A DNA stretch of 64,000 bases, taken from NCBI RefSeq assembly GCF_000712075.1, contig NZ_JONW01000011.1:248001-312000 (forward strand), read 5' to 3'. Shown piece after piece: positions 6,136 to 23,052 of this stretch; positions within the stretch are counted from its first letter, which is position 1, and each line of letters begins with the position of its first letter. The position numbers and the translations under genes are program-made. The notes beneath the pieces were generated by a model that was given only the letters and a program-made list of their open reading frames with translations, was not told where the DNA came from and searched no databases. The DNA comes from Caulobacter sp. UNC358MFTsu5.1. Lineage in GTDB: Bacteria; Pseudomonadota; Alphaproteobacteria; Caulobacterales; Caulobacteraceae.

Positions 6136-6819
6136 ATGCCTGAGGGGCTGGAGGAAACGACGCGCGAATTAATCGGCTGGACCCAAGAGGTCCTGCCGGG
6201 TCGCGCCGTCGTCGCCCGGTCCCTGGGCGATCGCGACTGCGGGGAAGGGGTCGATCTTCGTCTTGTTGGCCTGGCGCCGCAGGCGACGCCCCGGGCGGCC
6301 TCGCCGCCGCTGACCTTGGCCGCGGACTACCTGGTCACCGTGCGCGCCGCCGATCCGATCGTCGAGCAGACCGGCGCCATGGGGCTGCTGTTCGCGGCGA
6401 TGGAGCGCGACGAGTCCGAGGTGGTGCTGGATCGCGACGCGCTGAAACTGTGCCTCGACCTGAGCCTGCCGCCGGGCCCGGGCTTCGTGCTGCGGTCCAT
6501 GGTCTCGGTCGCCCGGCGTCGCGCGGCCGCCGCGGCGGCGCTCGTCCGCTTCCCGCTCACGGTCGACGCCGGCGAGCTCGGCGTCCTGCAGGGCTCGGTC
6601 CTGGGGCCGGGCGACATGCCGGTCGCCGACGCCGTGGTGCGCGTCGAGGGCGTGGACCGCACCGCCCGGACCGATGCGTTCGGCCGCTTCCGCCTACGCG
6701 GCCCCGTGGGCGCCAAGAACAAGCCCGTCCGCCTCAACGTCCGCGCCCGCGGCGTCGAGATCGACAGCGAGGTCGAGACCGACAGTCCCGTGATCCTTCG
6801 TTTACCGCTGGAGATTTGA
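6136..6819 (+). CDS. Afp16/Pvc16-like tail terminator with C-terminal Ig-like (carboxypeptidase-regulatory) domain
   Basis: The 227-residue protein opens the injection-system operon. Residues about 60-135 (ADYLVTVRAADPIVEQTGAM, LFAAMERDES, LKLCLDLSLPPGPGFVLRSM) match the general plan of the DUF4255/Pvc16 N-terminal domain, which caps the tube and sheath in Afp/PVC particles. Residues about 150-225 (GVLQGSVLGPGDMPVADAVV...RTDAFGRFRLRG) are a carboxypeptidase-regulatory-like beta-sandwich. The Pvc16 call rests on position and weak similarity; the C-terminal fold is clearer. A GGAG-type site precedes the ATG at 6136. The next gene (sheath) begins one base after this stop. Confidence 0.5.
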   Translation: MPEGLEETTRELIGWTQEVLPGRAVVARSLGDRDCGEGVDLRLVGLAPQATPRAASPPLTLAADYLVTVRAADPIVEQTGAMGLLFAAMERDESEVVLDRDALKLCLDLSLPPGPGFVLRSMVSVARRRAAAAAALVRFPLTVDAGELGVLQGSVLGPGDMPVADAVVRVEGVDRTARTDAFGRFRLRGPVGAKNKPVRLNVRARGVEIDSEVETDSPVILRLPLEI

Positions 6820-6820
6820 C

Positions 6821-8038
6821 ATGCTGTCCTATTTGAGCCCCGGCGTTTACGTCGAGGAGATCGACTCTGGAACACGCCCGATCGAGGCGGTGGGAACATC
6901 GACCGCCGGGTTCGTGGGAACCGCGCCGAACCCCGACGTCCTCGTCGACGAGGCGAAGGCGATCAACAACTGGAGCGAATTCCAGAGAACCTACATACGG
7001 GACGGCGACAAGGGCACCCACCTGTCCAACGCCGTCTACGGCTTCTTCCTCAATGGCGGCTCGCGCTGCTACGTGGTCAACACCAAGGCCGACGGGGCCA
7101 TCTCCGGCAAGGGGCGAGGGCTCGACGCCCTGGCGGCGATCGACGAGATCGCCATCATCGCCGCTCCGGGGCGGACCGATCCGGCGTCGCACGGCGCGCT
7201 GCTGGACGCCGCCGAGCTGCTCAAGGACCGCGTGGCGATCCTGGACGCTCCGGCTCGCGTCGATGACGTCGAGGTCCTGACCCGCGCCGCCGAGGGGCCC
7301 GCGCCGCCCGCGGCGCCCGCCGGCGATGCGGGCGCGCCGGCCAAGCCCAAGGGCCAGAAGCCCGGCCAGCGCCCCCGGGATTCCGACAGCGGCTATGGCG
7401 CCTGCTACTTCCCCTGGCTGACGGGCCTTGATGCGGTCGACCCCGATCCGAAGAACCCGGTGGAGATCCCGCCGTCGGGCCACATGGCCGGCATCTACGC
7501 CCGCACCGACAGCGAGCGCGGCGTGCACAAGGCGCCCGCCAACGTCACGATCCGCGGCGCCCAGGGGCTGACCCAGATGGTGTCCCGCGCCGACCAGGAC
7601 GTGCTCAATCCGGTCGGGATCAACTGCATCCGCTTCTTCAGCCGCGAGGGCGTGCGGGTCTGGGGCGCGCGCACCCTGGCGCCCAGCGCCAGCAACTGGC
7701 GCTACCTGAACGTCCGGCGGCTGTTCAACATGATCGAGGAGTCGATCGCCATCAGCACCCGCTGGGTGGTGTTCGAACCCAACGCCGGCCCGCTGTGGAA
7801 GGACATCCAGCGCGACATCGGCGCTTTCCTGACCCTGCTGTGGCGCCAGGGCGCCCTGGCCGGCGCCCGGCCCGAGGACGCCTTCTTCGTGAAGTGCGAC
7901 GCCGAGACCAACCCGCCCGAGGTGGTCGACGCCGGCCAGGTGGTGGTGGTCATCGGCATCGCGCCCGTGAAGCCGGCCGAATTCGTCATCTTCCGCATCG
8001 GCCAGACGGCGGTCGGAACCACCGTCGAGACCGCCTGA
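6821..8038 (+). CDS. Contractile tail sheath protein (Afp2-4 / phage sheath family)
   Basis: The start SYLSPGVYVEEIDSGTRPIEAVGTS is the classic N-terminus of contractile sheath proteins, and the C-terminal region (VRRLFNMIEESI, RWVVFEPNAGPLW, PPEVVDAGQVVVVIGIAPVKPAEFVIFRI) is the conserved core that forms the handshake between subunits. At 405 residues it is a compact sheath. A Pro/Ala/Gly-rich stretch at about residues 158-187 looks like a flexible surface loop within the outer domain. Sheath subunits stack around the tube and contract to drive it through a membrane. There is one sheath gene here, whereas Afp and PVC carry several paralogues. The gene lies one base after its upstream neighbour and 25 bases before the tube gene. 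Confidence 0.93.
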   Translation: MLSYLSPGVYVEEIDSGTRPIEAVGTSTAGFVGTAPNPDVLVDEAKAINNWSEFQRTYIRDGDKGTHLSNAVYGFFLNGGSRCYVVNTKADGAISGKGRGLDALAAIDEIAIIAAPGRTDPASHGALLDAAELLKDRVAILDAPARVDDVEVLTRAAEGPAPPAAPAGDAGAPAKPKGQKPGQRPRDSDSGYGACYFPWLTGLDAVDPDPKNPVEIPPSGHMAGIYARTDSERGVHKAPANVTIRGAQGLTQMVSRADQDVLNPVGINCIRFFSREGVRVWGARTLAPSASNWRYLNVRRLFNMIEESIAISTRWVVFEPNAGPLWKDIQRDIGAFLTLLWRQGALAGARPEDAFFVKCDAETNPPEVVDAGQVVVVIGIAPVKPAEFVIFRIGQTAVGTTVETA

Positions 8039-8063
8039 CCCCCAACCCTAGAGAGGATCCGTC

Positions 8064-8531
8064 ATGGCTAAGCCTGAAGAAGCAGCGGCGGCGCCCAAGG
8101 TTGGCGCTCTGCCCGACGTCTACCGCAACTACAACTTTATGCTGTCGTCCCGCGAGATGGGCGATGTCCGGTTCACCGAGTGCTTCGGCCTGGGCGTGCG
8201 GATCCATCCCATCCGCTATCGCGAGTCCGGCAGCGGCCAGATCGTCCGGACCCTGCCCGGGCCGATCGAGTACGCCGAGGTCACCCTGCGCTACGGCCTG
8301 ACCAAGACCCCGGCCCTGTGGGACTGGCTCAAGGAGGTCCTGGCCGGCGGCACGCCCCGTCGCAACATCTCGATCGCGATGATGGACGTGAAGGGCACGG
8401 CCGAGGTCCTGCGTTGGAACCTCGACAACGCCTGGCCCTGTGAATGGAGCGGCGTGTCGTTCGACGCCCTCGGCCGCGAAGTCGCGATCGAGGAACTCAA
8501 GCTGTCCTTCGACACCCTGACCCGAGCGTAA
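8064..8531 (+). CDS. Inner tube protein (Afp1/5, T4 gp19-like)
   Basis: This 155-residue protein has the size and layout of contractile-tail tube proteins: DVYRNYNFMLSSREMGDVRF at the N-terminus, an early strand FTECFGLGVRIHPIRYRESG, the LPGPIEYAEVTLRYGLTKT strand pair, LWDWLKEVLAGG, and a C-terminal strand AIEELKLSFDTLTRA. These match the gp19/Hcp-like family. Tube rings stack inside the sheath and carry cargo or the spike. A strong GAGAGGA site lies before the ATG. Only one tube gene is present. Confidence 0.9.
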   Translation: MAKPEEAAAAPKVGALPDVYRNYNFMLSSREMGDVRFTECFGLGVRIHPIRYRESGSGQIVRTLPGPIEYAEVTLRYGLTKTPALWDWLKEVLAGGTPRRNISIAMMDVKGTAEVLRWNLDNAWPCEWSGVSFDALGREVAIEELKLSFDTLTRA

Positions 8532-8534
8532 GCC

Positions 8535-10118
8535 ATGGCCCTTCGCCGCCTGTTTTCGGGTTGGCTGATCGCCATGGCGGCCTTGGCCCGCTCGGTGGCC
8601 CAGGCCCTGGAGCGCGCCTCCGAGGATCGATCCGCGCCGGCGCCGGACCCGGTGATGGCCGCCCTGGCCGAACGCTATCCGGGCGCGCCGGCCCATTGGC
8701 TGGCGCACGTGGCCGAGCGGACGTCCCAGCTGGCCGAAACGGGTCAGGCGCCGCTGTCGCTGAACAGCGACCCGACGGCCTGGCCGCCCGCGGGGGCGCC
8801 TGTGGGGGCGGACGGCCCGCCGCTGCGGCCGCTGACGCCCGAGGCGTCGCCGGTCCCGAAGGCGCGCGAACCGATCGCGAGGGACCCTGGCGTCCCCAGC
8901 TTGGCCGATCTGCGGGATCGCTCGGGCGAGGTCTGGCGTCGGTCGGAGCCGGAGCGCCGGCGCCGGCCGCGACCGGTGTTCGCGGCGGCGAACGTCGCGC
9001 CGGCGTCCGAGCGGATCGTTCGTCCCACGGCGACACCTGGGCCGACGCGCCGGCCCCGGTCGCCATTGAGCCTGGTCGCCGAGCTGTCCCGAGCGACGCC
9101 GGAAGGGCCAGCCCCGGTCGCGACAGCCGATCCGGAAGTGTCCGCGACCCGGTCAGGCATCTCTTCGCACGCGACCGCCTTGTCCCAGGCGCCGGTGTCG
9201 CGACTGGCGACCCATGAGCCGACGTGGGAGCCGGTGAAGGCCGAGCCTGGACGTCCGACCCAACGGCCGTCGGTCGACCGCATCGCCGCCCCGCCGGGTT
9301 CGGAAGGCCGCCAGCAGGACCGGCCGGAGACCTTCACGGAAGACGTCGCCGCGCGACGTGGCGTCCCGCATCGGAAATCCTGGTTCTTCGCGAAATCGGC
9401 CTCCGCCTCGCTGGGACGCCCCCTCGCGCTTTCGACGGTTCCGGGACCGCCCGTCGAAGACCCGTCGGAAGCCCCTGAACCGGTGGTCGTCGACGCCGCG
9501 CCCAAGCCTCGCCCGGCCTTTCCATTCCTGGCCTCGGATCGTCGAACCGTCGCGCCGAAACGGGTCTGGCGCGCCCGGCCGTCGCCGCCCGCGCGACACG
9601 CGGTCTTTCGGGCGCTGACGGCGCTGCGGGCCAAGCCGCATCCGCGCGCCGAGCATCCGGCCGCCTCCGAACCCGCCGTCGCGCCGACGACGCCGCCGAT
9701 CGATCCTCCGTCGTCGACGCCCAGGCCCAGGCCTCCGGCGCCATCCTTCAAGTCGTCCGCGATCGAGCCCCAGGGCCGGGCCGGGCCGGACTTTCCACTT
9801 CGCGATCCAACTGTAGAGCGGGATGCGCCGCCGAGCCGTGGCGAGGACCGGGACGTCCATCGCGCCGTCGCCCGGGCGACCCGTCAGGTCTCTAACGCCA
9901 CGCCGGCCGGTCCGCCCCACGACAGGCGGCCGGTCTATGCGGGGCCTCGTCCGTCCAGCTCGCGCGCCGCCTCGCGCCCGTTCGCCGACCCGCCGTCCGA
10001 CGATCGCTGGCCCGCGCTTCCGCCGCCGACCTTCGCCGCGCCGACCGGCGTCGAGGCTCCGCAGCCCCGGTGGGACCAACTGGCTCGTGAACAGGAGGAA
10101 GGGCGATGGAGCGTGTAG
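8535..10118 (+). CDS. Long Pro/Arg/Ala-rich, mostly disordered protein of the injection-system operon
   Basis: I do not recognise a family. The 527 residues start with a short helical, hydrophobic segment (LFSGWLIAMAALARSVAQAL) and an ordered-looking patch to about residue 75 (VMAALAERYPGAPAHWLAHV). Some 400 residues of low-complexity Pro, Ala, Arg and Ser follow, and the last 40 residues look structured again (DDRWPALPPPTF, RWDQLAREQEEGRWSV). The gene sits between the tube and the Afp7-like hub, three bases after the tube stop, and overlaps the next gene by 13 bases, so it belongs to the operon. Roles to consider are a lumen cargo, a scaffold or a tape measure; the sequence does not decide. 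The reading frame is supported by tight spacing on both sides. Confidence 0.65.
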   Translation: MALRRLFSGWLIAMAALARSVAQALERASEDRSAPAPDPVMAALAERYPGAPAHWLAHVAERTSQLAETGQAPLSLNSDPTAWPPAGAPVGADGPPLRPLTPEASPVPKAREPIARDPGVPSLADLRDRSGEVWRRSEPERRRRPRPVFAAANVAPASERIVRPTATPGPTRRPRSPLSLVAELSRATPEGPAPVATADPEVSATRSGISSHATALSQAPVSRLATHEPTWEPVKAEPGRPTQRPSVDRIAAPPGSEGRQQDRPETFTEDVAARRGVPHRKSWFFAKSASASLGRPLALSTVPGPPVEDPSEAPEPVVVDAAPKPRPAFPFLASDRRTVAPKRVWRARPSPPARHAVFRALTALRAKPHPRAEHPAASEPAVAPTTPPIDPPSSTPRPRPPAPSFKSSAIEPQGRAGPDFPLRDPTVERDAPPSRGEDRDVHRAVARATRQVSNATPAGPPHDRRPVYAGPRPSSSRAASRPFADPPSDDRWPALPPPTFAAPTGVEAPQPRWDQLAREQEEGRWSV

Positions 10119-10882
10119 CCTTCCTGCTGGAGCGGTCGGGCGAGCGGCTTTCGTGCCTGCTCAATCCCGAGAGCCTGGAAGCCCGGCGCACCGCCGGCGT
10201 GCGGACGCGGGTGGCCGGCGGCGGCTTCCTGACCGGCGTGGCGCGGTCCGAGGACCCGTTGATCGCCACCGGCGGCGGTGTCACCGAATACGACCTGAAC
10301 CTGCTGTTCGACGTCGAGATCGCCCGGGAAGGCCGGCCGTCGACCGCGCCGGAAGACGGCCAGGGTCCGGCCGCGGACGACGATGTCCGCGCCCTGACCC
10401 GTCCGCTCTGGGACCTGACGGAGAACGCCATCGCCGCCGACGGCTTCTCGGCCCCGCCCACGGTGCGGTTCATCTGGGGCAAGTCCTGGAATATCCCCAG
10501 CGTCGTGCTGCACGTGGCCGAACGGCTTGAGCGGTTCAACGCCGACGGGGCGCCGCGCCGGTCGTGGCTCAGCCTGCGCCTGCGCCGCGTCGAGGATTCC
10601 GAGCCGCGCCCGGCGCCCGCCCGCCCGGTGACGCCGCAGTTCGAGTCGCCGTTCGACCTGGAAAGCGGGTCCATCGATCAATACCCGGCCGTCGATATGC
10701 CGGTCGATAGCGAAGGCCTGCCCCTGAAGCGGCTCGATCAGATGGCCGACGACGGCTACGGCGATCCGGGCCTGTGGCCCGAGATCGCCACCTACAACGG
10801 CGTTGACGACCCCCTGAACATCCCGGAAGGCACGACGATCGTGCTGCCTTCGCTGGCGATCCTTCTGGAGGCGCGGGCATGA
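10106..10882 (+). CDS. Afp7-like tube-initiator/baseplate hub protein with LysM-like end
   Basis: The 258-residue protein matches the contractile injection system tube N-terminal domain: FLLERSGERLSCLLNPESLE and similar strands at the start, then an FIWGKSWNIPSVVLHVAERLERFNADG-type strand region (residues about 125-150). The C-terminus (ATYNGVDDPLNIPEGTTIVLP, residues about 230-250) resembles a LysM repeat, as in gp53/Afp7 proteins that join tube to spike. AGGAGG lies just before the ATG at 10106, which supports this start inside the previous gene. The stop overlaps the next start by four bases. Confidence 0.8.
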   Translation: MERVAFLLERSGERLSCLLNPESLEARRTAGVRTRVAGGGFLTGVARSEDPLIATGGGVTEYDLNLLFDVEIAREGRPSTAPEDGQGPAADDDVRALTRPLWDLTENAIAADGFSAPPTVRFIWGKSWNIPSVVLHVAERLERFNADGAPRRSWLSLRLRRVEDSEPRPAPARPVTPQFESPFDLESGSIDQYPAVDMPVDSEGLPLKRLDQMADDGYGDPGLWPEIATYNGVDDPLNIPEGTTIVLPSLAILLEARA

Positions 10883-12393
10883 CCTCGATCTTCGCCAACC
10901 GCCCGTTGCGGGCGCGCCTGGACGGATCGCCCCTGGACCCGGCCCTGGGCCGTTACGCGGTCTCGGCCTTCGTGCGCCAGGCGCTCAATGCGCCGGCCAT
11001 GGCCGAACTGGTCTTCGCCGAGCCGCCCGCCGACGCCCTGAGAGGGTTGCGGCTGGGCGCGGGCCTGGCCTTTTCGGTCGACGGCTCGGGCGATCTGTTC
11101 GACGGCGAGATCACCGCCGTCGAGTACCAGAACGACGCCGACCAGGGCCGGATCGTGCGGCTGCGGGCGCTGGACAAGCTGCACCGGGCCCGGCTGCGCC
11201 AGCGCGCCCGGGCGCTGACCGACCAGACGGTGGCCGACGTCGCGGGCCAGATGGCGGGCGACCTGGGCCTGGGGTTCCAGTGCGCCGAGCATCCGCCGAC
11301 CCGCGCCCTGATCGTCCAGCACGACCAGAACGACTTCGACCTGGTGGTCGACCTGGCGCGGGACGCGGGCCTCTATCTGGTGGTGGAGGGGACCGACCTG
11401 CGGCTGATCAGCCTGGCGGGCGAGGGCGAGCCGATTCCGCTGCGGATGCGGCGCGAGATCATCGAGGCGCGGGCCTCGGCGGGGGCGGACTCGCTGCGCC
11501 CCTGGACCAGCGCCCAGTCGTGGGACCCGTCGCGGGCGGTCGCGGCCAACGCCCGGGCGGGCCTGGCGCGGCAGGACGCCGAGGAACTGCGCGACGGCGG
11601 GCTGACGGCCTTCCCGGACCTGGGCGGACGGACCCTGTTCAATCGCCTGGCGGCCGACGCCGCCGAGGCCGAGAGCCTGGCCCAGGCCGATCTCGACCGG
11701 GCGGTGGCGCGCGCCGTGCTGCTGGACGCGGTGGTCGAGGGCGACACCCATCTGCGCCCGGGGCGGCCGGTGAATGTGGAAGGCCTGGGCGACCTGGTCG
11801 ACGGCCGCTGCGTGGTGACGCGGGCCCTGCATCGCTTCGAGGAAGCCCGCGGCTACGTGGTCGAGATCTCGACCGAACCGCCGGCCCGGCCCGACCGGCC
11901 GCGCACGCCGGCCTTCACCCTGGGCAAGGTGACCGACGCCGACGATCCCGACGGCTTGGCGCGGGTCCGGGTCAAGCTGCCGGTGCTGGGCGATGTCGAG
12001 ACCGGCTGGATGTCGGTGCTGCTGCTGGGCGCGGGCGCCGAGAAGGGCGTCGCCATCCTGCCGGAGCCGGAGGACGACGTGCTGGTGCTGTTCCCGGACG
12101 GCGATCCCGCGCGCGGCGTGGTCCTGGGCGGCCTCTATGGCGAACGCACCGCGCCGGGACCGCGCGGCGCGGGGACGGCCGGGGCGCGCGCCTTCACCGT
12201 GCGGACGCCGGGCGGCCAGGTGCTGACCCTGGACAGCGTCGACGCCCTGGCGCGGCTGGAGACCCGCGCCGGCGGCCTGTTCGAGTTCGGCCCCAACGGT
12301 TCGCGCCTGAGGGCCAGCGGCGACCTGGTCATCGAGGCCCCGGGCCGCCGGCTGACGATCCGCGCCGCCGCCGTCGCGTTCGAGGAGGGTTGA
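10879..12393 (+). CDS. VgrG/Afp8-like spike protein (gpD hub plus gp5 OB-fold)
   Basis: Residues about 1-340 resemble phage late-control gpD / gp27 hub domains, and residues 342-430 are a gp5-type OB-fold (FTLGKVTDADDPDGLARVRV, GWMSVLLLGAGAEKGVAILP, DDVLVLFPDGDPARGVVLGG). A short beta-rich tail (TVRTPGGQVLTLDSVDALAR) then leads toward the needle. The 504 residues are close to Afp8-type spikes. The protein forms the trimeric membrane-piercing spike at the baseplate centre. No effector domain is fused at the C-terminus. The start overlaps the preceding stop (ATGA). Confidence 0.88.
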   Translation: MTSIFANRPLRARLDGSPLDPALGRYAVSAFVRQALNAPAMAELVFAEPPADALRGLRLGAGLAFSVDGSGDLFDGEITAVEYQNDADQGRIVRLRALDKLHRARLRQRARALTDQTVADVAGQMAGDLGLGFQCAEHPPTRALIVQHDQNDFDLVVDLARDAGLYLVVEGTDLRLISLAGEGEPIPLRMRREIIEARASAGADSLRPWTSAQSWDPSRAVAANARAGLARQDAEELRDGGLTAFPDLGGRTLFNRLAADAAEAESLAQADLDRAVARAVLLDAVVEGDTHLRPGRPVNVEGLGDLVDGRCVVTRALHRFEEARGYVVEISTEPPARPDRPRTPAFTLGKVTDADDPDGLARVRVKLPVLGDVETGWMSVLLLGAGAEKGVAILPEPEDDVLVLFPDGDPARGVVLGGLYGERTAPGPRGAGTAGARAFTVRTPGGQVLTLDSVDALARLETRAGGLFEFGPNGSRLRASGDLVIEAPGRRLTIRAAAVAFEEG

Positions 12394-12395
12394 GC

Positions 12396-12740
12396 ATGCT
12401 ATGGTTGACCCAGGACGCGACGCTGGTCTGCGACCATGGCGGCCGGGTGGGCATAGCCCCCACCCAGACCCTGGTGCGCATCAAGAGCCGGCTGGCGCTG
12501 GTCAATCCCAACCCGCAGTCGCGGCCCATCTCGGCCTGTCCGAACGCCAATCCGGTCATCGGCCTGCGCCCCTGCCTGACCACGCTCGCGGTCAAGCAGG
12601 GCTATTCGACCTTCGTCACCATCGGCGGCCGGGCGGTGTGCCTGGACACGGTGACGGGGCTTACCGACGGGTCGCCGCCGGGCACGGTCAATTATCGCGT
12701 GGTCGATCCTGGCCAGCGCCTCGTGGCGGCCGGGAGTTGA
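12396..12740 (+). CDS. PAAR-like spike-tip protein
   Basis: This 114-residue protein starts two bases after the spike stop. Its pattern (DATLVCDHGGRVGIAPTQ, QSRPISACPNANPVIGLRPC, TIGGRAVCLDTVTGLTDG) resembles the DUF4280/PAAR-like family that caps the spike in Afp/PVC systems (Afp10 position). Four cysteines and one histidine could bind a metal at the tip, as in PAAR proteins. The assignment rests on gene order as well as on the pattern. Confidence 0.65.
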   Translation: MLWLTQDATLVCDHGGRVGIAPTQTLVRIKSRLALVNPNPQSRPISACPNANPVIGLRPCLTTLAVKQGYSTFVTIGGRAVCLDTVTGLTDGSPPGTVNYRVVDPGQRLVAAGS

Positions 12741-12742
12741 GC

Positions 12743-13180
12743 ATGAAGAGCGTTCGGGGCATCCGGTTCGAGGGCGCGGAGCTGGGCGGAGCCACGTCCG
12801 AGCTGCGGCGGCCGGCGGGGCTGGTCCTGTCGCCGGCGGGGCGGCTGGCCGAGGTGAGCGGCGCCGACGCCGTGCGCCAGGCGATCATCCTGCTGCTGAC
12901 CACCATACCCGGCGAGCGCGTGATGCGGCCCAGCTACGGCTGTCCGCTGCATCGGCTGATGTTCGCGCCCAACGACGCCACGACCGCCGGCCTGGCCATC
13001 CACTACGTGCGCCAGTCGCTCAAGCGCTGGGAGCCCCGGATCGAGATCGTGCGGTTGGACGCGGGCGTCGATCCCGCCGCGCCCAGCCAGCTGAACGTCT
13101 CCCTGGACTACCGGGTGCGCAGCAGCAACCAGCCGGGTCAGCTGCAGTTCGGCCTCGACCTGCAAGGGGAGGCCGCCTGA
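12743..13180 (+). CDS. gp25/GPW-like baseplate wedge protein (Afp9)
   Basis: The 145-residue protein carries the gp25 signature: VRQAIILLLTTIPGERVMRP near residue 45, then YGCPLHRLMFAPND and a helical IHYVRQSLKRWEPRIEI segment, ending in strands SLDYRVRSSNQ. gp25 proteins start sheath polymerisation on the baseplate. The start follows the previous stop by two bases and the stop shares one base with the next ATG (TGATG). Confidence 0.9.
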   Translation: MKSVRGIRFEGAELGGATSELRRPAGLVLSPAGRLAEVSGADAVRQAIILLLTTIPGERVMRPSYGCPLHRLMFAPNDATTAGLAIHYVRQSLKRWEPRIEIVRLDAGVDPAAPSQLNVSLDYRVRSSNQPGQLQFGLDLQGEAA

Positions 13181-15711
13181 TGCCCTTGCCCACCCCCAAG
13201 CTGGATGACCGCACCTTCACCGAGCTGATGGCCGACGCCGTCAAGGTGATCGACCGCTCGTGCCCGGAATGGACCGACCGCAATCCCAGCGATCCCGGCA
13301 TCACCCTGCTGGAGACCTTCGCCTACCTGACCGACACCATGCTGTACCGGCTCAATCGCGTGCCGGAGAAGCTGTATGTCAGCCTGCTGAACTTAGTCGG
13401 CGCCCAGATCCGGCCGCCGGCCGCGGCCGCCGCGACCCTGACCTTCACCCGCACCGAGGGCAATGGGCGGATCACGATCCCCGCCGGGGCGCGGATCGCC
13501 ACCAGCGACGGCTCGGTGACGTTCGTGGTCACCCAGGCCGCGATCCTGCCGCCCGACCAGAAGAGCGTCGACGCGCCGGCCCTCCATTGCGAGACGGTCG
13601 AGGCCGAGTCGGTCGGCGCCGGCACAGGCGCGCCCGGCCTCAGCGTGCAGGTGCGGCGTCCGCCGATCATCGCCCCCTCCGGCGACGGGCTGGACCTGAT
13701 CGTCGGCGTCGAGGCCGACAGCGCCGAGCTGGCCGACGGGGCGGTGTCGCGCACGCTGGGCGACAAGAGCTATCGCATCTGGCGCGAGGTCTTCAGCTTC
13801 GCCGACGCCGCGCCCACCGACTGCGTCTACAAGGTCGACCGCGCTACGGGCCGCATCCAGTTCGCGCCGGCCATGGCCGGAGAGGGCTCCACCCCGCTGT
13901 CGGCCGTGCCGGCCCTGGGGCGCGACATCCGGGTCTGGTATCGCGTCGGCGGCGGGCGGGCCGGCAATGTGGCGCCCGGCGTCCTCACGGTGTTCAAGAC
14001 CCCGATCGCGGGTCTGGCGGTGACCAACGCGGCGCGCGCCGCCGGCGGGGCCGAGGCCGAGACCGTCCAGGCGGCGGTGCGGCGCGGGCCACTGGAACTG
14101 ACCTCCATGCGCTGCGCGGTCACCGCCCGCGACTTCGAGCGGGTGGCGCTCAGCGTCGGGGCCGTGGCTCGCGCCAAGGCCTACGCCCAGTCACAGGTCT
14201 GGGCCCACGCCGCCCCCGGGGTGGTCGAGATCCTGCTGGTGCCGGCCGTCGATCCCGAGACGCTGCCCGATGCGGGCGTGACCGCCCAGGCGGTGGTCGA
14301 TCGCCGGAGCGAGGACCTGCGGGCCCGCGTCCAGAAGGCCGTCGACCAGCGCCGGCCGCTGGGCGTGCAGACCTCGGTGGGCTGGGCCAGGGTCCGCCCC
14401 GTGTCGGTGGCCGCGCGCGTGGTGGTCAGCCGCGAGGAGGACGCCCCGGCGGTCGAGGCCCGGCTGCGCGTCCGGCTCAACAAGCTGTTCTCGCCGTTGC
14501 GCGACGAGCCCTTCGGCCAGGTGCTGCGCGCCTCCGACGTCTACGAGGCCATGCTGGCCGATCCCAGCGTGCGCTACGCCGACCAGCTTCGGCTGACCAT
14601 TGGCGAAGCGCCTGACCGGGACGTGGCCGACCTGCTGCGCGACCCGCACCAGCCCCGCACCTGGTTCGCCGCCACCAACCAGGGCCTGCACCGCAGCCTC
14701 GACGACGGCAACACCTGGTCGGTGGTGTTCAAGGCCGACGGCGACCGGCCGCTGTTCGTGCGCCGCCACCGCGACCGGCCGGGCCTGATGGCGCTGGGCG
14801 TCGTCCGCAAGGCCGGCGGGGCCATCCACGTGTCGCGCGACTGCGGCGAGACCTGGAAGACCGAGGCGGCGGTGTTCAACAGCGACGTGTCCGACGCCGA
14901 CTGGCTCGACCGCGAAGGCTCGCCCCTGCTGCTGATCGCCACGGGCGAGGGCCTTCGCCAGCTCAAGCCGTTCGGCGACGCCGGTCCCGCCCCCGTGGTG
15001 GTGGACAAGACCCGCGACACCAAGGGCTTTTACGCCGTGACGACCTCGGTCTCGTCGGCCGGGGTGGTGCAGGTCGCGGTGGCCGCCCGGGTCAAGGGCG
15101 GGGTCTATCTGTCAGCGCTGGGCGGGGTGTCCGAGAGCTTCCATCCCATCGGCCTGGTCAACCAGGACATCCGCAGCCTGACGGTGCAGCGCTTCAACGC
15201 TCGCGATTTCCTGTGGGCGGCGGCGGCGGCCGAGGCCGGTCAGCAGGGCTCGGGCGCCTTCCGGGTGGAGCTGCGGTCGGGCGGCGCCGACGATCCCGAG
15301 GGCTTTAAGCCGTTCAACATCGGCTGGCAGGGCGGCTCGTGCGAAGGGCTGGCTTTCGCCGACCAGTGGGTGTTCGCCGGGTCGAACCGCGGCGGCGTGC
15401 TGGCCCTGGACACCACGGCGGCCGCTCCGTCCTGGCGGGCCGCGCCGCTGGACGCCGGCCTGCCCATCCGCGACACCGAACGGCTGCTGCACGTGGTGTC
15501 CAGCGTGGCGGCGACGCCTGTCGCCGGCGCGGCGCCGATGGTGTTCGCGGGCGGCCCCATGGGCGTCTACCGCAGCCTGGACGGGGCCCAGCACTTCGCC
15601 ACCGCCTCGGCCACGGTGTTCACCGACCGCATCCCGCTGCCGCCCAACTGGCTCTATTGCGCCGACCAACACCACCTTTCGGTGGTGATCGACGACGATA
15701 CGGGGGGCTGA
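13180..15711 (+). CDS. Baseplate J (Afp11/gp6-like) protein fused to an Asp-box beta-propeller
   Basis: Residues about 1-480 are a baseplate wedge protein of the gp6/J type: WTDRNPSDPGITLLETFAYL with MLYRLNRVPEKLYVSLLNLV at the start, and VTARDFERVALSVGAVARAK with VEARLRVRLNKLFSPLRDEP further on. From about residue 490 the protein turns into a repeat domain with Asp-box motifs (SLDDGNTW, SRDCGETW, SLDGAQHF) typical of BNR/Ycf48/sortilin-like propellers, running to the end (843 residues). The propeller may decorate the baseplate, bind a surface partner or replace a fibre adaptor; this is inference. The start overlaps the gp25 stop by one base. Confidence 0.85.
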   Translation: MPLPTPKLDDRTFTELMADAVKVIDRSCPEWTDRNPSDPGITLLETFAYLTDTMLYRLNRVPEKLYVSLLNLVGAQIRPPAAAAATLTFTRTEGNGRITIPAGARIATSDGSVTFVVTQAAILPPDQKSVDAPALHCETVEAESVGAGTGAPGLSVQVRRPPIIAPSGDGLDLIVGVEADSAELADGAVSRTLGDKSYRIWREVFSFADAAPTDCVYKVDRATGRIQFAPAMAGEGSTPLSAVPALGRDIRVWYRVGGGRAGNVAPGVLTVFKTPIAGLAVTNAARAAGGAEAETVQAAVRRGPLELTSMRCAVTARDFERVALSVGAVARAKAYAQSQVWAHAAPGVVEILLVPAVDPETLPDAGVTAQAVVDRRSEDLRARVQKAVDQRRPLGVQTSVGWARVRPVSVAARVVVSREEDAPAVEARLRVRLNKLFSPLRDEPFGQVLRASDVYEAMLADPSVRYADQLRLTIGEAPDRDVADLLRDPHQPRTWFAATNQGLHRSLDDGNTWSVVFKADGDRPLFVRRHRDRPGLMALGVVRKAGGAIHVSRDCGETWKTEAAVFNSDVSDADWLDREGSPLLLIATGEGLRQLKPFGDAGPAPVVVDKTRDTKGFYAVTTSVSSAGVVQVAVAARVKGGVYLSALGGVSESFHPIGLVNQDIRSLTVQRFNARDFLWAAAAAEAGQQGSGAFRVELRSGGADDPEGFKPFNIGWQGGSCEGLAFADQWVFAGSNRGGVLALDTTAAAPSWRAAPLDAGLPIRDTERLLHVVSSVAATPVAGAAPMVFAGGPMGVYRSLDGAQHFATASATVFTDRIPLPPNWLYCADQHHLSVVIDDDTGG

Positions 15712-15713
15712 CG

Positions 15714-16256
15714 ATGGACCGCGCCCGCATCGCCCGCCTGCTGCCCGAGACCTACCAGTCCGCCATCGCGCCGAAGAAGCCGCTGGCGGCGACGCTGGAG
15801 GTGATGGAGATGCTGCAGGCGCCGGCCGAGAACGCCCTGGCGACCCTCGACGCCCACGTCGACCCGATGCGCGCGCCGCCGAACTTCGCCCTGATGCTGG
15901 CCCGCTGGCTGGACCTGGACCGCTATCTGGACTGGACCGGCGGACGCCCAGGCGAGGGCGCGCCGCGCTACGCCGCCGGGATGGGCCGCCTGCGGCTGCT
16001 GTGCCTGGAGGCGGCCGAGCTGGCGCGCTGGCGCGGCACTCGCCGGACCCTCGAACGCATCCTGACCGTGGCGACCGGGGTCTCCGGCTACGCCGTGGAG
16101 GAGAACCCGCCCGGGCCCAAAGGCGTCGCACGGTGCTTCCACCTGCGCGTCGTCGCCCCGGCAGCCGCACGGCCTTTGGCCGATCTAGTGCGTCGGATCG
16201 TCGACGAAGAGCGTCCCGCCTACACGACCTACGAAATCGAATTTTCTGCAGCCTGA
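15714..16256 (+). CDS. Phage tail protein I-like baseplate protein (Afp12 position)
   Basis: The 180-residue protein has the features of the tail protein I domain: IARLLPETYQSAI at the start, VMEMLQAPAENALATLDAHV, LARWLDL near residue 64, and RWRGTRRTLERILTVATG, then strands ending in VDEERPAYTTYEIEF. It links the J protein to peripheral parts of the baseplate. Its start is two bases after the J stop. It is the last recognisable structural gene of the injection system; no tail fibre, tape measure or AAA+ ATPase follows. Confidence 0.8.
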   Translation: MDRARIARLLPETYQSAIAPKKPLAATLEVMEMLQAPAENALATLDAHVDPMRAPPNFALMLARWLDLDRYLDWTGGRPGEGAPRYAAGMGRLRLLCLEAAELARWRGTRRTLERILTVATGVSGYAVEENPPGPKGVARCFHLRVVAPAAARPLADLVRRIVDEERPAYTTYEIEFSAA

Positions 16257-16280
16257 TCGCGAGCACGAGGACGAACGCCC

Positions 16281-17660
16281 ATGCCGAGTTTCGAGATTCC
16301 GGACGGCCCCACGACCGTAGCCCTGAAGACGGAGGCCGGCTTCCACAAGGGCAACGCCGTGTTCAACGTCACCAACAAGACCGGGGAGGGGCTGACCGCC
16401 CGGTTCAGCGTGCAGATCCAGGGCGCCGGCAAGGCCGAATGGTATCAGATCCAGGGCGAACCCGAGCGGCCCGTTGCCGCCGGCGAGACCCAGACGGTCA
16501 CGGTGCTGGCGAAGATCCCCGCCGCGACGCCGGCCGGCCAGCATCGGATCAAGCTGCGGGCCACCAACGTCAACGACCCGGACAACGACAGCACCGACAG
16601 CACCGCCGCGGCCATCACGATCCCGGCGGTCGTCAAGCCGCAGGTCAAGAAGAAGCCGTTCCCGTGGTGGATCATCGCGGTGGCCGGCGGCGTGCTGGTG
16701 CTGGTGATCGGCGTGATCATCGCCGTCGTGGTCATGAGCGGCGGCTCCAAGGTCCCGAAGGTGATCGGGATGGACTACGCCTCCGCCGTCTCGGCCCTGA
16801 AGGACAAGGGCTACGGGGCCGAACCGGAGATCAGACAGGCGCCGCCCGGCAAGGAGCCCCTGGACAAGGTGTTCCTGCAGGACCCCGCGGCCGGCACGAA
16901 GGCCGATCCCAAGACGACCCGGGTCAAGCTGACCGTCGCGGGCGTGCCGACGGTCGCCGTGCCCGGCGTGACCGGGCTGGACTATCCCGACGCCGCCGCC
17001 GTGCTCGAGAAGGCCGGCTTCAAGGTCGGGCCGGCGATCGAGGAGGTCTCCAGCGACAAGACCCTGGGTCAGGTGTTCAAGCAGGAACCCGCGGCCGACG
17101 CGCAGGCAGATCCCGCGACGACCGAGGTCAAGCTGACCGTGGCCGTCGGCGAGACGGTGGCCGTGCCGAGCGTCGCCGGCAAGCCGCTGGTGGCCGCGCA
17201 GGCGCTGCTCGAGGATCGCGGCTTCAAGGTCACGTCGGCGGTCGGGAAGGCCTCCGGTCAACAGCCGGACTCCGTCCTGGTTCAGAATCCGGCCGGCGAC
17301 ACCAAGGCCCCCAAGGGCAGCGTCGTGGCCTTGACGACTGATCCCGGCGTGGTCGTGCCCAACCTGCTCAGCCCGCAGATCGGCGGGATCGCGGGCATCC
17401 AGGCGCTGAAGAACGCCGGGACCGACATCGGGTCGATCGGCTCCACCTGCGTGGGGACGCCCAACATGATCATGACCCAGAGCATCGAGCCGAAGACCAG
17501 GGTCGCCCTGGGCACCCGGGTGAACATCACGGTCGCCAGCGCCCAGGCGAACATCGCGTTCTGCCGGGCGATCGTGGACGCGAACATCCTGACCTACAGC
17601 ACCCAGATGCGGTCGGTGAAGACGGTCGCGCCGACCACGCTGAGGACCCTGCCGAAGTGA
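16281..17660 (+). CDS. Single-pass membrane protein with N-terminal Ig-like domain and three to four PASTA repeats
   Basis: The 459-residue protein has no signal peptide. Residues 1-115 form a beta-sandwich-like domain (VFNVTNKTGEGLTARFSVQI, PVAAGETQTVTVLAKIP). A single transmembrane helix follows at about 128-155 (WWIIAVAGGVLVLVIGVIIA). PASTA repeats come next at about 157-223, 225-291 and 293-356, each opening VPxVxG and ending in a VKLTVA-like strand, with a degenerate fourth at 358-422. With the N-terminus inside, the PASTA repeats would face the periplasm, where this domain class is known to bind peptidoglycan. The gene lies 24 bases after the tail protein I gene in the same direction. 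The first 145 residues are nearly identical to those of the next gene. Confidence 0.8.
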   Translation: MPSFEIPDGPTTVALKTEAGFHKGNAVFNVTNKTGEGLTARFSVQIQGAGKAEWYQIQGEPERPVAAGETQTVTVLAKIPAATPAGQHRIKLRATNVNDPDNDSTDSTAAAITIPAVVKPQVKKKPFPWWIIAVAGGVLVLVIGVIIAVVVMSGGSKVPKVIGMDYASAVSALKDKGYGAEPEIRQAPPGKEPLDKVFLQDPAAGTKADPKTTRVKLTVAGVPTVAVPGVTGLDYPDAAAVLEKAGFKVGPAIEEVSSDKTLGQVFKQEPAADAQADPATTEVKLTVAVGETVAVPSVAGKPLVAAQALLEDRGFKVTSAVGKASGQQPDSVLVQNPAGDTKAPKGSVVALTTDPGVVVPNLLSPQIGGIAGIQALKNAGTDIGSIGSTCVGTPNMIMTQSIEPKTRVALGTRVNITVASAQANIAFCRAIVDANILTYSTQMRSVKTVAPTTLRTLPK

Positions 17661-18180
17661 TCGCGCGCCGCGTCGCGGGCGCGAAGCCCGCGGCGCGGCG
17701 TCGACCGCAAGGACGTCGAACCCAAGGATCAGGACATGCCGAGTTTCGAGATTCCGGACGGACCGACCACCGTCGCCCTGAAGACCGAGGGCGGCTTCCA
17801 CAAGGGCAGCGCCGTCTTCGGCGTCACCAACAAGACGGGCGAGGGCCTGACCGCGCGCTTCAGCGTCCAGGTCCAGGGCGAGGGCAAACCCGAGTGGTAC
17901 CAGGTCCAGGGGGAATCGGAACGGCCGGTCGCGGCGGGCGAGAACCAGACCGTGACCGTGGTCGCCAAGATCCCGGCCGCGGCGCCGCCGGGCCAGCACC
18001 GGATCAAGTTGCGGGCCACCAACGTCAACGACCCCGACAACGACAGCACCGACAGCACGGCGGCGACGGTCACCGTGCCGGCCGCCGGCCCCGCGCCGCC
18101 GCCCAAGAAGCCGTTCCCGTGGTGGATCATCGCGGTGGCCGGCGGGGTGCTGGTCCTGGTGATCGCCGTGATCATCGCTG
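16281..18180 (+). repeat. Tandem gene-segment duplication (about 16281-16720 and 17736-18180)
   Basis: The first 440 or so bases of the two PASTA genes are a direct repeat, starting with the identical CCGAGTTTCGAGATTCCGGA and running through the transmembrane codons. Differences are mostly at third positions, so both copies have been kept under protein-level constraint. The copies then diverge completely. Recombination between them could delete one gene. Confidence 0.85.
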
Positions 18181-18800
18181 TCGTGGCGTTGGGCGGAGGG
18201 GGCAAGGTCCCGAACGTGGTCGGCCAACCCTATGCCGACGCCGTCAAAGCGCTGGACAAGGCCGGCTACAAGTCCGTCAAGCGGACCGACAAGGAAATCG
18301 ACAAGGCCCCGGACACCGTGCTGGACCAGTCGCCCGCCGCCGACGTCAAGGCCAAGAAGAGCGAGACGATCCTGCTGACGGTGGCCATCCCCCTGCCGGC
18401 CGTCACACCCCCGCCGGAGGAACCCAAGGAGGAACCGCCGATCATCGAACCGGCCGAGGCCAATTGCGATCCGGCGGTCGGCGCCTGCATCGACGGCTTT
18501 GTCTGGCGCGGGGCCTGGCCCAACGACCGGGTCTGCGTCCCGCCCGAGTCCAGCTACCTGGCCCGTTTGGAGAACGGCCAGGCCGGCGCGCGCCGCAATC
18601 CGAACGGCGGTCCGTACGGTCCGGACACCTGTCTGATGGGCTATGTCTGGCGCGACGGCTACAACGGCGACCACGTCTGCGTCACCGGCGAGCGGCGCAC
18701 CGTCGTGGCCCAGGAGAACGCGGCGGGTCCGTCCCGCTATCGCGCCTGCCGGCCCGAGCGGATCATCCCGAGAACCAAGGTCGCGTCGCCCGCGGGCTAG
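17736..18800 (+). CDS. Paralogue of the PASTA membrane protein with one PASTA repeat and a Cys-rich tail
   Basis: Residues 1-150 repeat the upstream gene almost exactly (same Ig-like domain and transmembrane helix at about 128-152). One PASTA repeat follows (KVPNVVGQPYADAVKALDKA, about 154-220), then a proline-rich spacer. The tail (about 245-345) holds two related units, GFVWRGAWPNDRVCV and GYVWRDGYNGDHVCV, each preceded by a cysteine and followed by an EN..A...R stretch. The six cysteines could form disulfides in the periplasm. The gene starts 75 bases after its paralogue. The same cytoplasmic domain on two different outer parts suggests a shared inner partner, plausibly the injection-system baseplate. 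Confidence 0.8.
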   Translation: MPSFEIPDGPTTVALKTEGGFHKGSAVFGVTNKTGEGLTARFSVQVQGEGKPEWYQVQGESERPVAAGENQTVTVVAKIPAAAPPGQHRIKLRATNVNDPDNDSTDSTAATVTVPAAGPAPPPKKPFPWWIIAVAGGVLVLVIAVIIAVVALGGGGKVPNVVGQPYADAVKALDKAGYKSVKRTDKEIDKAPDTVLDQSPAADVKAKKSETILLTVAIPLPAVTPPPEEPKEEPPIIEPAEANCDPAVGACIDGFVWRGAWPNDRVCVPPESSYLARLENGQAGARRNPNGGPYGPDTCLMGYVWRDGYNGDHVCVTGERRTVVAQENAAGPSRYRACRPERIIPRTKVASPAG

Positions 18801-18812
18801 GCGTCCAAACCC

Positions 18813-18873
18813 CCGGACCCGCCCGGCGCGGGTCCGGCGATCGTGCAGGAGGGGGACCCGCTTCGGCGGGTCC
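18813..18873 (+). promoter_or_regulatory. Twin hairpins with interchangeable arms before the HExxH membrane gene
   Basis: CCGGACCCGC (18813-18822) pairs with GCGGGTCCGG (18828-18837) across CCGGC. GGACCCGC (18854-18861) pairs with GCGGGTCC (18866-18873) across a TTCG tetraloop. The 8-base cores are identical, so the outer arms could pair instead. No T tract follows. The second hairpin ends just before the ribosome site TAAGGAG. Either a weak terminator of the PASTA genes or a leader that tunes translation is possible. Confidence 0.5.
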
Positions 18874-18887
18874 GTAAGGAGTGCATC

Positions 18888-19865
18888 ATGGAGCGGATCT
18901 TCTCTCTGGAGGCCATCCTCGGATCCCTGGCCTTCGGCGTGGCCGGGGCGCTGGTGGCCCTGATCGTGCGATTGGCCAAGGGCGACGGGAGCGCGGCGCT
19001 GTGGCGCGTGCTGGAGACCTTCCTCACCGCGACGCTCGGCGCCTTCCTGGCGCGGACCTTCATCAGCATCATGCTGAGCGTCGGCGGGGACTCGGACGCG
19101 GCGATCACCGTGACCAGCCTGCTGTTCTTCATCTGGCCGGGCGTGGTGAACCTGATCTCGCTGGGCTTCGGCCATCCCGTGATCGGCGTGGAGGCGCTGT
19201 TGTGGATCGCCCTGGTGGTCGGCGGGCTGGTGGGCCTGTTCGACGGCCTGTGGGCCACCCACAAATGGGCGGGCCTGGGCGCGCCGGCCTTCCTGCTGGA
19301 CGTCACATGGGGGCTGGGCGGCAACACCAACGGCGTCCTGATGCACCTGATCAACTTCGCCTGGGGCGACCATGGCGACGGTCCCGACGAGAACCGCCAC
19401 GACGCCCACCGCTACAAGCAGGGCTTCGCGGTGCGGTCGGGCTTCGCCTTCACCCAGGGCGCGGTGATGAGCAACACCGACGCCTGGGACCCGACGACGG
19501 ACCTGTTCAAGCACGAGACGATCCACATCTGGCAGAACCGGCTGCTAGGGCCGTTCTTCTGGTTCTCCTATGTCGGCTGGATGCTGGTGACCCTGATCCC
19601 GGCCCTGATCGCCGGCCTGATCGATTCCAGCCGCCGGATCGGGGACGCGATCACCTGGTGGACCTATTTCGACAATCCCTGGGAGGTGATGGCCTACGGC
19701 ATCGCCAACCCCACGGACCGGACCGGCCAGCGGTTCCTGGACGGCAGCGGCACGGTGACGGGCTGGGTCTGCTGGCCCTGGCCGCTGGCCATCGTCACCT
19801 CGGTGATCGGCGTGGCGGGACTGGGCGCCGCGTTCGTGGCCATCATGATGGCCGGTTATGGGTGA
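18888..19865 (+). CDS. Polytopic membrane protein with an HExxH metallopeptidase-type motif
   Basis: The 325-residue protein has several hydrophobic helices (for example LAFGVAGALVALIVRL, WIALVVGGLVGLFDGLW, YVGWMLVTLIPALIAGLI and a last one near 300-322). Between helices lies H209-E-T-I-H213 followed by W-Q, and about 50 residues later NPWEVMAY with E266. HExxH plus a downstream Glu is the zinc-binding pattern of gluzincin-type peptidases, so a membrane peptidase is likely, although no named family is certain. HExxH proteins of the DUF4157 type accompany many injection systems; this one differs by being embedded in the membrane. The ATG at 18888 has TAAGGAG upstream. The next gene starts 9 bases after the stop. 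Confidence 0.7.
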   Translation: MERIFSLEAILGSLAFGVAGALVALIVRLAKGDGSAALWRVLETFLTATLGAFLARTFISIMLSVGGDSDAAITVTSLLFFIWPGVVNLISLGFGHPVIGVEALLWIALVVGGLVGLFDGLWATHKWAGLGAPAFLLDVTWGLGGNTNGVLMHLINFAWGDHGDGPDENRHDAHRYKQGFAVRSGFAFTQGAVMSNTDAWDPTTDLFKHETIHIWQNRLLGPFFWFSYVGWMLVTLIPALIAGLIDSSRRIGDAITWWTYFDNPWEVMAYGIANPTDRTGQRFLDGSGTVTGWVCWPWPLAIVTSVIGVAGLGAAFVAIMMAGYG

Positions 19866-19874
19866 GCCGCGCCG

Positions 19875-20480
19875 ATGAAGATCGTCATCATCATCCTGAT
19901 CCTCATCGTCCTCGGCTTCGTCGTGGCGATCGGCGTGGCCGTCTACCGCGCCACCACGCCGCCCGCGCCGCCGTCGGCCCACGGGCCGCCCACGGACAGC
20001 AACGGCAATATCGACGAGGACGCCCTGGCGGACTGGGAGCCTCCGTCCATGGCCGCCGTCATGGGCAGCATCTCGCGTCCGTTCGCGCCGAAGCTGTTCA
20101 AGAAGGCCGAGGTGGTCGAATTCCCGGCCGGCGAGGACCGCCAGTCCCAGACCGTGTCCGTCCCGGCAGCCAATAAGGACATGCGAATGGCTCGTCTTCG
20201 ACTGATCCAGGGGCGAGGCGCGGTCGCGACCTATACGGTCCTGGCGCCCGGGCAGGGGGAGACCAGCCCCCAGGCCGTGTGCCTGTGCGCCGAGAACACC
20301 CGCCTGGACGAGGACGAGGTCGACGACTGCGGGGACGCCTGGCGGAAGGTCCGGAGGTCCGGCGACCAGTTCCTCTGCCGCGCCAAGGACGACGACGTCT
20401 CGGCCGTGATCTATCGCTCGGGCGGCGTGATCGAGATCAAGCCCCTGGGCGACCAGCCGTTGGAGGTGACGGTGCGGTGA
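19875..20480 (+). CDS. Membrane-anchored protein of unknown function
   Basis: The 201-residue product has a strong N-terminal hydrophobic helix (IVIIILILIVLGFVVAIGVA, residues 3-22) and then a soluble part of about 175 residues with a proline-rich linker. I do not recognise a family. The C-terminal half has four cysteines (AVCLCAEN, DDCGDAW, FLCRAK) and several beta strands. It starts 9 bases after the HExxH gene stop and is probably co-transcribed with it. It closes the plus-strand block that began with the injection-system operon. Confidence 0.6.
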   Translation: MKIVIIILILIVLGFVVAIGVAVYRATTPPAPPSAHGPPTDSNGNIDEDALADWEPPSMAAVMGSISRPFAPKLFKKAEVVEFPAGEDRQSQTVSVPAANKDMRMARLRLIQGRGAVATYTVLAPGQGETSPQAVCLCAENTRLDEDEVDDCGDAWRKVRRSGDQFLCRAKDDDVSAVIYRSGGVIEIKPLGDQPLEVTVR

Positions 20481-21403: not shown

Positions 21404-21439
21404 AGGATCGGTGGGTCGGCCACGAAGATACTGAAGAAA

Positions 21440-22369: not shown

Positions 22370-22386
22370 ATCCCCCGGATACGCCC

Positions 22387-23034: not shown

Positions 23035-23052
23035 GAGCGGGGGACTCTGGAC

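Follow-up and report, generated by a model that had tools for sequence, protein, structure and literature searches.

Among the contractile injection systems (CIS) that have been described, that of Streptomyces depends on CisA, a bitopic membrane protein (N-terminus inside, C-terminus outside) which is encoded just after the baseplate genes, in a gene place that usually encodes fibres, and which is needed for contraction and function and is absent from the purified particle (PMC12237407; this and the other papers cited here for known systems and surveys are drawn on through parts of their text). A haloarchaeal CIS acting as a type VI secretion system (T6SS) is bound to the cytoplasmic membrane, and the anchor proposed for it has six predicted transmembrane segments (TMs) and is conserved with one clade (PMC11566945). 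Here we describe a CIS locus of Caulobacter sp. UNC358MFTsu5.1 that lies at positions 6136-20480 of the plus strand, extended by 20488-21180 on the minus strand, of a 64,000-nucleotide stretch of contig NZ_JONW01000011.1 (hereafter the window, meaning the whole stretch that was analysed). In this locus the place after the baseplate genes is taken by proteins in which an immunoglobulin-like (Ig-like) domain, a single TM and PASTA domains follow one another, and these Ig-TM-PASTA proteins belong to a module that is inherited together and recurs in distant bacteria. We consider it reasonably probable that the module marks a distinct clade of cell-attached, fibre-less CIS, in which Ig-TM-PASTA adaptors extending to the wall hold the particle at the inner membrane.

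A single CIS with one sheath is encoded at 6136-20480, where all genes are on the plus strand (Table 1) and the reading frames are backed by codon-position GC; its sheath is also the one PF04984 sheath of the genome. Sheath, tube, hub, spike, gp25 and an Afp11-type baseplate protein stand in one cluster, as in an extracellular CIS (eCIS). An earlier sequence-only reading of the stretch had listed co-directional sheath, tube, hub, spike, PAAR-like, gp25, J and tail I genes, followed in the same direction by two single-pass PASTA proteins, a membrane HExxH protein and another anchored protein. All of these were found, most of the structural genes being named by Pfam or NCBIfam models, but that inventory had omitted the cap-like gene, the disordered protein at 8535-10118 and the multi-pass gene at 20488-21180, the last of which is a conserved part of the module despite its opposite strand. 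Cis11 and the sheath are closest, among solved structures, to the S. coelicolor CIS; the best match of the sheath is 8bky (1.6e-126), the same sequence being present in 9gtp, which is the S. coelicolor CIS baseplate.

The same reading had proposed a search of relatives for co-occurrence of the eCIS block with the PASTA genes, and had named PASTA genes common outside a CIS as the observation that would speak against it. In our searches of the family and the class, which score only candidates from a loose first look, the Ig-TM part occurs in exactly the 7 of 299 family genomes that have this CIS, as well as in six distant loci, and none of the other 292 family genomes showed such a gene apart from a CIS. 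The sheath search matched 33 of the 299, seven of them (the genome of the window included) at full length and at least 89% identity (at least 86% by tblastn), and no other match above 51%. These same seven genomes are the ones that hold the Ig-TM part of PASTA2, in two copies each and always beside the CIS, the multi-pass profile matches the same seven among 279 family genomes, and all seven, which are Caulobacter, hold every gene from the cap-like through the multi-pass gene. A further sheath in genome G268 (43%) was considered as the same system and set aside, no other module gene being nearby. At the level of the class, the Ig-TM profile matched 7 of 289 genomes, at full length only the genome of the window and in part the six others (E 1.6e-5 or worse), so that no full-length Ig-TM protein lacking a CIS was seen in the 288 other class genomes. 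The system is rare, since a full Cis11 was found in 1 of 385 class genomes, namely its own.

More distant relatives were sought with Cis11. A scan of the genome_contigs collection gave 104 confirmed stretches, of which the best 80 loci were kept (3,971 to 22,142 bases long); these include four Caulobacter loci with this system, while three others from Caulobacter (L135-L137) represent another CIS. The same 5 of the 80 loci, namely the four Caulobacter and L070, a Desulfobacteraceae metagenome-assembled genome (MAG), are matched by each of three profiles (anchored protein, multi-pass protein and additional domain of Cis11), and the Ig-TM profile matches those five and, weakly, two cyanobacterial loci. 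Some of the stretches end shortly after Cis11, so the absence of flanking genes carries less weight than that of the Cis11 domain. By look, the two cyanobacterial proteins (L089:17596-19671 and L092:1-1465) have several Ig domains before one TM, without PASTA. L070 has a sheath of 57% identity, a Cis11 of 41% over its whole length, one Ig-TM-PASTA protein, an anchored protein and, on the opposite strand, a multi-pass protein. Among 395 genomes of its phylum, Cis11 was found in L070 itself, in G841 (46%, full length), which holds the whole module, and in G959 (30%, lacking the extra domain). The module of G841 is adjoined by a caspase-domain gene (L151:15739-18543), and a TPR-CHAT gene lies farther off (L152:1078-3990). 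Cis11 is matched by 54 of 72,556 plasmid records, in five cases over at least 80% of its length, these five being from Paracoccus, Deinococcus, Rhodovulum sp. and two R. sulfidophilum; each of the four inspected carries a gene annotated as a PASTA domain protein in its block. Cis11 is thus found over its whole length, extra domain included, in L070, G841 and five plasmid records. Phages contributed 6 matches to Cis11 among 50,697 records, none over 80% of it, and no relative was confirmed when viral contigs were scanned with profiles of the multi-pass and Ig-TM-PASTA proteins; one CIS from a Cis11 scan made beside these did not match the extra domain. A sheath scan, for which 19 of the 79 loci kept were annotated, yielded a further partial member (L156, sheath 74%, Cis11 54%) whose contig ends within Cis11, before the PASTA position, and the other 18 annotated loci, some of them from short contigs, had no full-length Cis11 match.

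The same 13 genes are present in six of these distant loci: L070, G841 and the plasmids of Paracoccus, Deinococcus and two Rhodovulum. Homology was judged by leaving out one lineage at a time, the two Rhodovulum together, and running the profile made from the other lineages against all stop-to-stop open reading frames (ORFs) of at least 60 codons in the held-out stretch. For 12 of the 13 core families the expected ORF came out as the best match in every one of the seven loci, the exception being the disordered protein, whose family is undetectable by such profiles in the seven loci. With the PASTA part omitted, the Ig-TM family was recovered at E values from 2.5e-20 to 7e-41 (PASTA1 1.2e-36, PASTA2 9.2e-37), the multi-pass protein at 3.6e-53 to 2.9e-68, the PAAR-like family at 4.9e-28 or better and the anchored protein at 8.5e-4 to 6.2e-10; the cap-like gene is weak in the two Rhodovulum (3.7e-3 and 7.7e-3). 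An Ig-TM-PASTA gene directly follows tail I in the distant loci except that of Deinococcus, in which the HExxH gene intervenes. The multi-pass gene of Paracoccus sits upstream of the cap-like one, and an additional gene of 102 amino acids is present in the Rhodovulum loci.

The members are also united by their Cis11, which carries an extra, BNR/Asp-box-like C-terminal domain from about residue 480 (residues 480-843). This domain is probably a beta-propeller, to judge from its match to NF045728 (2.8e-11, below the cut-off, Cis11 residues 480-565) and from those of a profile of the C-terminal part to BNR-repeat and xyloglucanase chains (4.1e-10 to 4e-9, over the first ~90 positions only). In a midpoint-rooted tree of 89 Cis11 sequences (three had been dropped for low coverage and one was not found), the 12 that have the extra domain group together on a long stem (support 1.0), and the sister of this clade is a plasmid CIS of Deinococcus actinosclerus (0.896), followed by that of S. 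clavuligerus (0.656). Within the clade, for which the branching is given here without support values, Cis11 of Deinococcus AJ005 is placed beside the Alphaproteobacteria, and this nesting favours transfer between phyla.

What the gene after Cis12 encodes was compared over 88 loci, the next gene being assigned by rule in 73 and read from the record annotation in L236, L238 and L256. It has one TM in 9 of 10 members of the clade, the tenth (L236) having by annotation an HExxH gene and then a PASTA gene. Outside the clade and its two neighbours, a TM is seen in 1 of 61 (L130) at hydropathy cut-offs of 1.8 and 1.9, in 3 of 61 at 1.7 and in 9 of 61 at 1.6. From these counts, the slot that holds a soluble protein in other CIS holds a clear membrane protein here. 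The two neighbours have something of their own in this position: in D. actinosclerus, directly after Cis12, a protein of 1607 amino acids with a kinase, an FHA, an Ig-like domain (match below cut-off) and a TM (L255:13080-17903), which hints at kinase control of firing; and in S. clavuligerus, at the CisA position, a protein with a zinc-ribbon-like start (below cut-off) and one weak TM (1.83). The adaptor of our locus is bitopic, predicted to have its N-terminus inside and encoded just after the baseplate genes (with HExxH between them in Deinococcus), and is thus best read as resembling CisA in place and topology and not in sequence. This suggests a rule for the neighbourhood of the CisA branch, namely that the gene following Cis12 codes for a swappable membrane adaptor, whether CisA, kinase-FHA-Ig-like-TM or Ig-TM-PASTA.

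This likeness raises the possibility that the proteins act as a CisA-like trigger, free cytoplasmic particles being captured only under envelope stress and fired into the cell's own envelope, which would kill or lyse the cell. The nearest solved relatives of sheath and Cis11 do belong to the S. coelicolor CIS with CisA, whose gene place, orientation, need in contraction and absence from the purified particle were given above; no gene of the module was recognised as encoding an effector or immunity protein (cargo encoded elsewhere was not sought); and in G841 the module has its caspase-domain neighbour and, farther on, the TPR-CHAT gene. Neither a caspase nor a CHAT gene was noticed in any other locus, although no search was aimed at them, and the presence of two further membrane proteins in 7 of 7 loci suggests instead a standing complex. 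We hold the trigger explanation to be unlikely.

The Ig-TM-PASTA proteins themselves point to a membrane location. PASTA1 has four PASTA stretches and PASTA2 one, in each case after a single internal TM, and both have an N-terminal Ig-like domain that scores narrowly above the FixG_C threshold; PASTA is above its cut-off in 6 of 6 distant relatives as well. The TM-PASTA part matches the PknB model, far below cut-off, and solved PknB PASTA chains. In all eight Ig-TM-PASTA proteins the first hydrophobic stretch, by hydropathy only, begins at residue 114 or later, so that the TM comes after the Ig domain and there is no sign of a hydrophobic signal peptide. Each of the eight has one strong internal TM (mean hydropathy 2.2-3.3), and in each lysine and arginine are commoner before the TM than after it. 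Cysteines after the TM number 2, 6, 0, 0, 4, 2, 4 and 4, i.e., they are even in 8 of 8 and wanting in two. Charge bias and cysteines agree with an Ig domain inside and PASTA in the periplasm, a predicted topology that we regard as very probable. As the genes occupy the position of fibres, after Cis12, it could be argued that they encode unusual tail fibres of a released particle that bind the peptidoglycan of a target cell; given the strong internal TM in 8 of 8 (fibre features were judged by hydropathy alone), we find this most improbable. The Cys-rich end of PASTA2 (residues 251-334) shares 47-54% identity with parts of plasmids from Tsukamurella, Rhizobium, Deinococcus and Streptomyces.

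Selection was followed in four Caulobacter comparisons of 14 genes (PASTA2 left out), all of which have dN/dS below 1. Most structural genes lie at 0.01-0.23, the multi-pass protein at 0.11-0.15 and the anchored protein at 0.49-0.78, and within PASTA1 the ratio rises from 0.13-0.34 in the Ig part to 0.37-0.53 in PASTA plus tail, a gradient that fits a machine-facing Ig domain and outward-facing PASTA.

Two further membrane proteins accompany the adaptors in 7 of 7 loci. The anchored protein (201 amino acids, one N-terminal TM) has a structure model of mean pLDDT 72.6, for which Foldseek gave no match at E 1e-3 or better; the multi-pass profile matched no chain in the PDB. The HExxH protein, which has six hydrophobic stretches, is present in all seven Caulobacter genomes and in the Deinococcus locus (2.8e-61, HExxH and NPWE conserved) and was not found in the other five of the six distant loci. 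PASTA and a membrane-bound HExxH protein both relate to the wall or envelope, and they are encoded downstream of the structural genes, where accessory genes are common; this would suit a module in which these and the anchored and multi-pass proteins serve release or wall remodelling for an otherwise normal extracellular particle. The HExxH gene, however, was not found in most of the distant loci, and no fibre gene by which a released particle would find its target was recognised in the module; this explanation appears quite improbable to us.

Two further CIS components were not identified among these genes. In the seven loci the module contains no Walker A ORF of at least 150 amino acids, such as an AAA+ ATPase (Cis15) would have, one antisense ORF in G841 excepted. 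The control is weak, in that a stricter motif recovers AAA+ ORFs from no more than 4 of the 80 other CIS loci and the looser one gives nothing in stretches L063 and L064; a CIS ATPase query found only partial AAA-domain matches in 3 of 3 Caulobacter genomes. A fibre (Cis13) gene was not recognised in the module either (no fibre profile was run and fibres encoded elsewhere were not sought); its genes have other assignments, and an Ig-TM-PASTA gene occupies the place of the fibre.

On the reading of a cell-attached device, the most economical one, the particle would be assembled in the cytoplasm, and the N-terminal Ig-like domain would bind the baseplate (Cis11/Cis12) at the tail-fibre site. The TM of the Ig-TM-PASTA protein would fix the particle to the inner membrane while the PASTA domains reached the peptidoglycan, the multi-pass and anchored proteins would complete the docking site, and the HExxH protein, where present, may trim the wall or envelope proteins. 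Upon a trigger, contraction of the sheath would drive the PAAR-tipped tube through the cell's own envelope. That Ig-TM-PASTA proteins keep a CIS in the cell is made plausible by the precedent of CisA and by the membrane-mounted haloarchaeal and thylakoid CIS. We are fairly confident of docking at the baseplate and lean slightly towards contact with peptidoglycan, a PASTA-based wall tether being likely, not certain; outward firing from a live cell we propose only tentatively, and firing into the cell's own envelope under stress seems to us more doubtful still.

A number of observations weigh against this reading. PASTA1 has no similarity visible to BLASTP with its S. clavuligerus counterpart (best E 26), and so homology to CisA, judged by the S. 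clavuligerus protein at that position and not by S. coelicolor CisA, was not found; the want of a recognised effector, noted above, tells in the same direction. The number of PASTA domains varies from 1 to 4, and that of G841 is barely above its cut-off (25.0 vs 23.2 bits). Both Rhodovulum proteins show only a small charge bias (1 vs 0), and that of L070 has a net charge of -1 ahead of its TM. The Ig part is under weaker constraint than most structural genes, and the disordered protein, predicted to be inside, drifts as fast as the PASTA part (within Caulobacter, pN 0.31-0.35 and dN/dS 0.47-0.58), so that fast change is no proof of an outside location. PASTA in a CIS need not bind wall, since five loci from Myxococcales and a deltaproteobacterium (L073, L075, L076, L077 and L079) encode a Cis12/tail I protein that begins with a fused PASTA-like stretch (tblastn 1.3e-6 to 1.3e-4), and none of the three examined for a TM has one. 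Lastly, the AlphaFold model of Cis11 is poor (mean pLDDT 46.7), and the propeller hence rests on profile matches to the first part of the domain.

Table 1. Genes of the CIS module in the window, with the evidence for each assignment
Feature	Position	Strand	Evidence
Cap/terminator-like protein (Cis16 position), carboxypeptidase-regulatory-like C-terminal part	6136..6819	+	CarboxypepD_reg 2.1e-6, below cut-off
Sheath (Cis2)	6821..8038	+	PF04984/PF17482 over cut-off
Tube (Cis1/5)	8064..8531	+	PF06841 2.5e-32
Disordered Pro-rich protein (Cis6 position, by place only), between tube and hub	8535..10118	+	
Hub / tube initiator (Cis7)	10106..10882	+	PF19266 3.7e-7
Spike (Cis8, VgrG-like)	10879..12393	+	PF04717, PF05954
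PAAR-like spike tip (Cis10 position; function by place only)	12396..12740	+	Conserved in 7/7 loci
gp25-like baseplate wedge (Cis9)	12743..13180	+	PF04965 1.3e-25
Cis11 (J-like) with extra C-terminal domain	13180..15711	+	PF04865; TIGR02243 240 bits, over cut-off
Tail I / short Cis12, 182 amino acids	15708..16256	+	TIGR02242 1.2e-10, CIS12_fam 5.4e-5, both below cut-off
PASTA1: Ig-like, TM 131-149, four PASTA	16281..17660	+	PASTA gathering score exceeded
PASTA2: paralogue, one PASTA, Cys-rich C-terminal part	17736..18800	+	PASTA gathering score exceeded
Membrane HExxH protein (putative zinc peptidase), accessory	18888..19865	+	HETIH at residue 209
TM-anchored beta-rich protein	19875..20480	+	Syntenic best match in 7/7 loci
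Multi-pass membrane protein, six hydrophobic stretches	20488..21180	-	7/7 loci

The PAAR-like and cap-like genes in Table 1 are named by position and conservation, as the former has no Pfam, NCBIfam or PHROG match and the latter only a match below cut-off; a comparison of the cap-like gene with a Pvc16_N protein did not demonstrate homology. The tube is 97-100% identical within Caulobacter. The disordered protein ends, in 7 of 7 loci, with the motif [DE]Q-x(1,3)-G-x(0,2)-W at 2-5 residues from the C-terminus, and is possibly a tube plug or length ruler. A long antisense ORF at 16185-19526 (minus strand) is taken to be an artefact of high GC, because codon-position GC tracks the genes of the plus strand. 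Beyond the module we noted, by eye, Mla lipid transport-like genes at 21299-25137 and, at 25757-31348, a very long hybrid histidine kinase whose HAMP-like repeats are numerous and nearly identical; VacJ- and MlaC-like genes adjoin the module in the other six Caulobacter genomes as well.

The apparent replacement of fibres by membrane-spanning proteins with wall-binding-type domains, in a gene set that recurs in distant bacteria and on plasmids, suggests a new mode of mounting. More broadly, and with less than even confidence, we would picture standing, wall-tethered launchers of living and mostly diderm cells, in which an adaptor with Ig, TM and wall-binding parts, together with two membrane proteins, replaced fibres, ATPase and a recognisable tape measure, and which evolved apart from the T6SS and spread between phyla partly on plasmids. 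The module is compact (13 genes), partly plasmid-borne and found in named isolates of Caulobacter, Rhodovulum, Paracoccus and Deinococcus, and deletion of one or two of its genes would be a direct test of anchoring to membrane and wall. In full-text literature, most subscription papers lying outside it, no paper was found, to judge by the matches listed, that joins PASTA with contractile injection systems or eCIS; in PMC10376142, which mentions eCIS, "pasta" is the name of an author. Term searches found PASTA neither in the main text of an eCIS survey (PMC8213781) nor in a catalogue of fibres (PMC12923769).

Set beside known systems, the locus shares features with several. The T6SS is alike in the mode proposed here, docked at the inner membrane and fired from within, whereas the sheath of our locus is of the PF04984 type and IcmF (PF06761, of the TssJLM complex) was found in 0 of 1 genomes, that of the window, with a positive E. 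coli control (T6SS sheath genes were not searched for). The PknB-type PASTA kinases likewise have a cytoplasmic domain, one TM and extracytoplasmic PASTA, but here an Ig-like domain stands in the place of the kinase; the sister CIS of D. actinosclerus does have a kinase at this gene place. The thylakoid CIS (tCIS) of Anabaena is also membrane-mounted inside the producing cell, but is anchored by a TM on a fibre-like Cis13 and by an extension of Cis12, with a Cis19 crown (PMC8894136); with a tail I protein of only 182 amino acids, our locus has no Cis12 extension of that type. In the haloarchaeal CIS, as here, no tape measure or plug homologue was found; its anchor, however, has a cytoplasmic domain of 150 residues, the legend to its gene cluster mentions an ATPase, and PASTA or Ig-TM proteins are not named in the parts of that paper drawn on (PMC11566945). 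The S. coelicolor CIS (type IId) is closest, with the nearest solved sheath and Cis11 and a bitopic, N-in protein after the baseplate genes, and differs from ours in that Ig and PASTA domains, two further membrane proteins and the extra Cis11 domain are found here. The sequence-only reading had called the device a type that it did not recognise, which suits the module, but Streptomyces CisA already provides an example of a bitopic membrane adaptor encoded at the place of fibres (PMC12237407). As for the particle, it belongs to the Afp-like CIS and lies near the Streptomyces branch, and its mounting module seems to be new.

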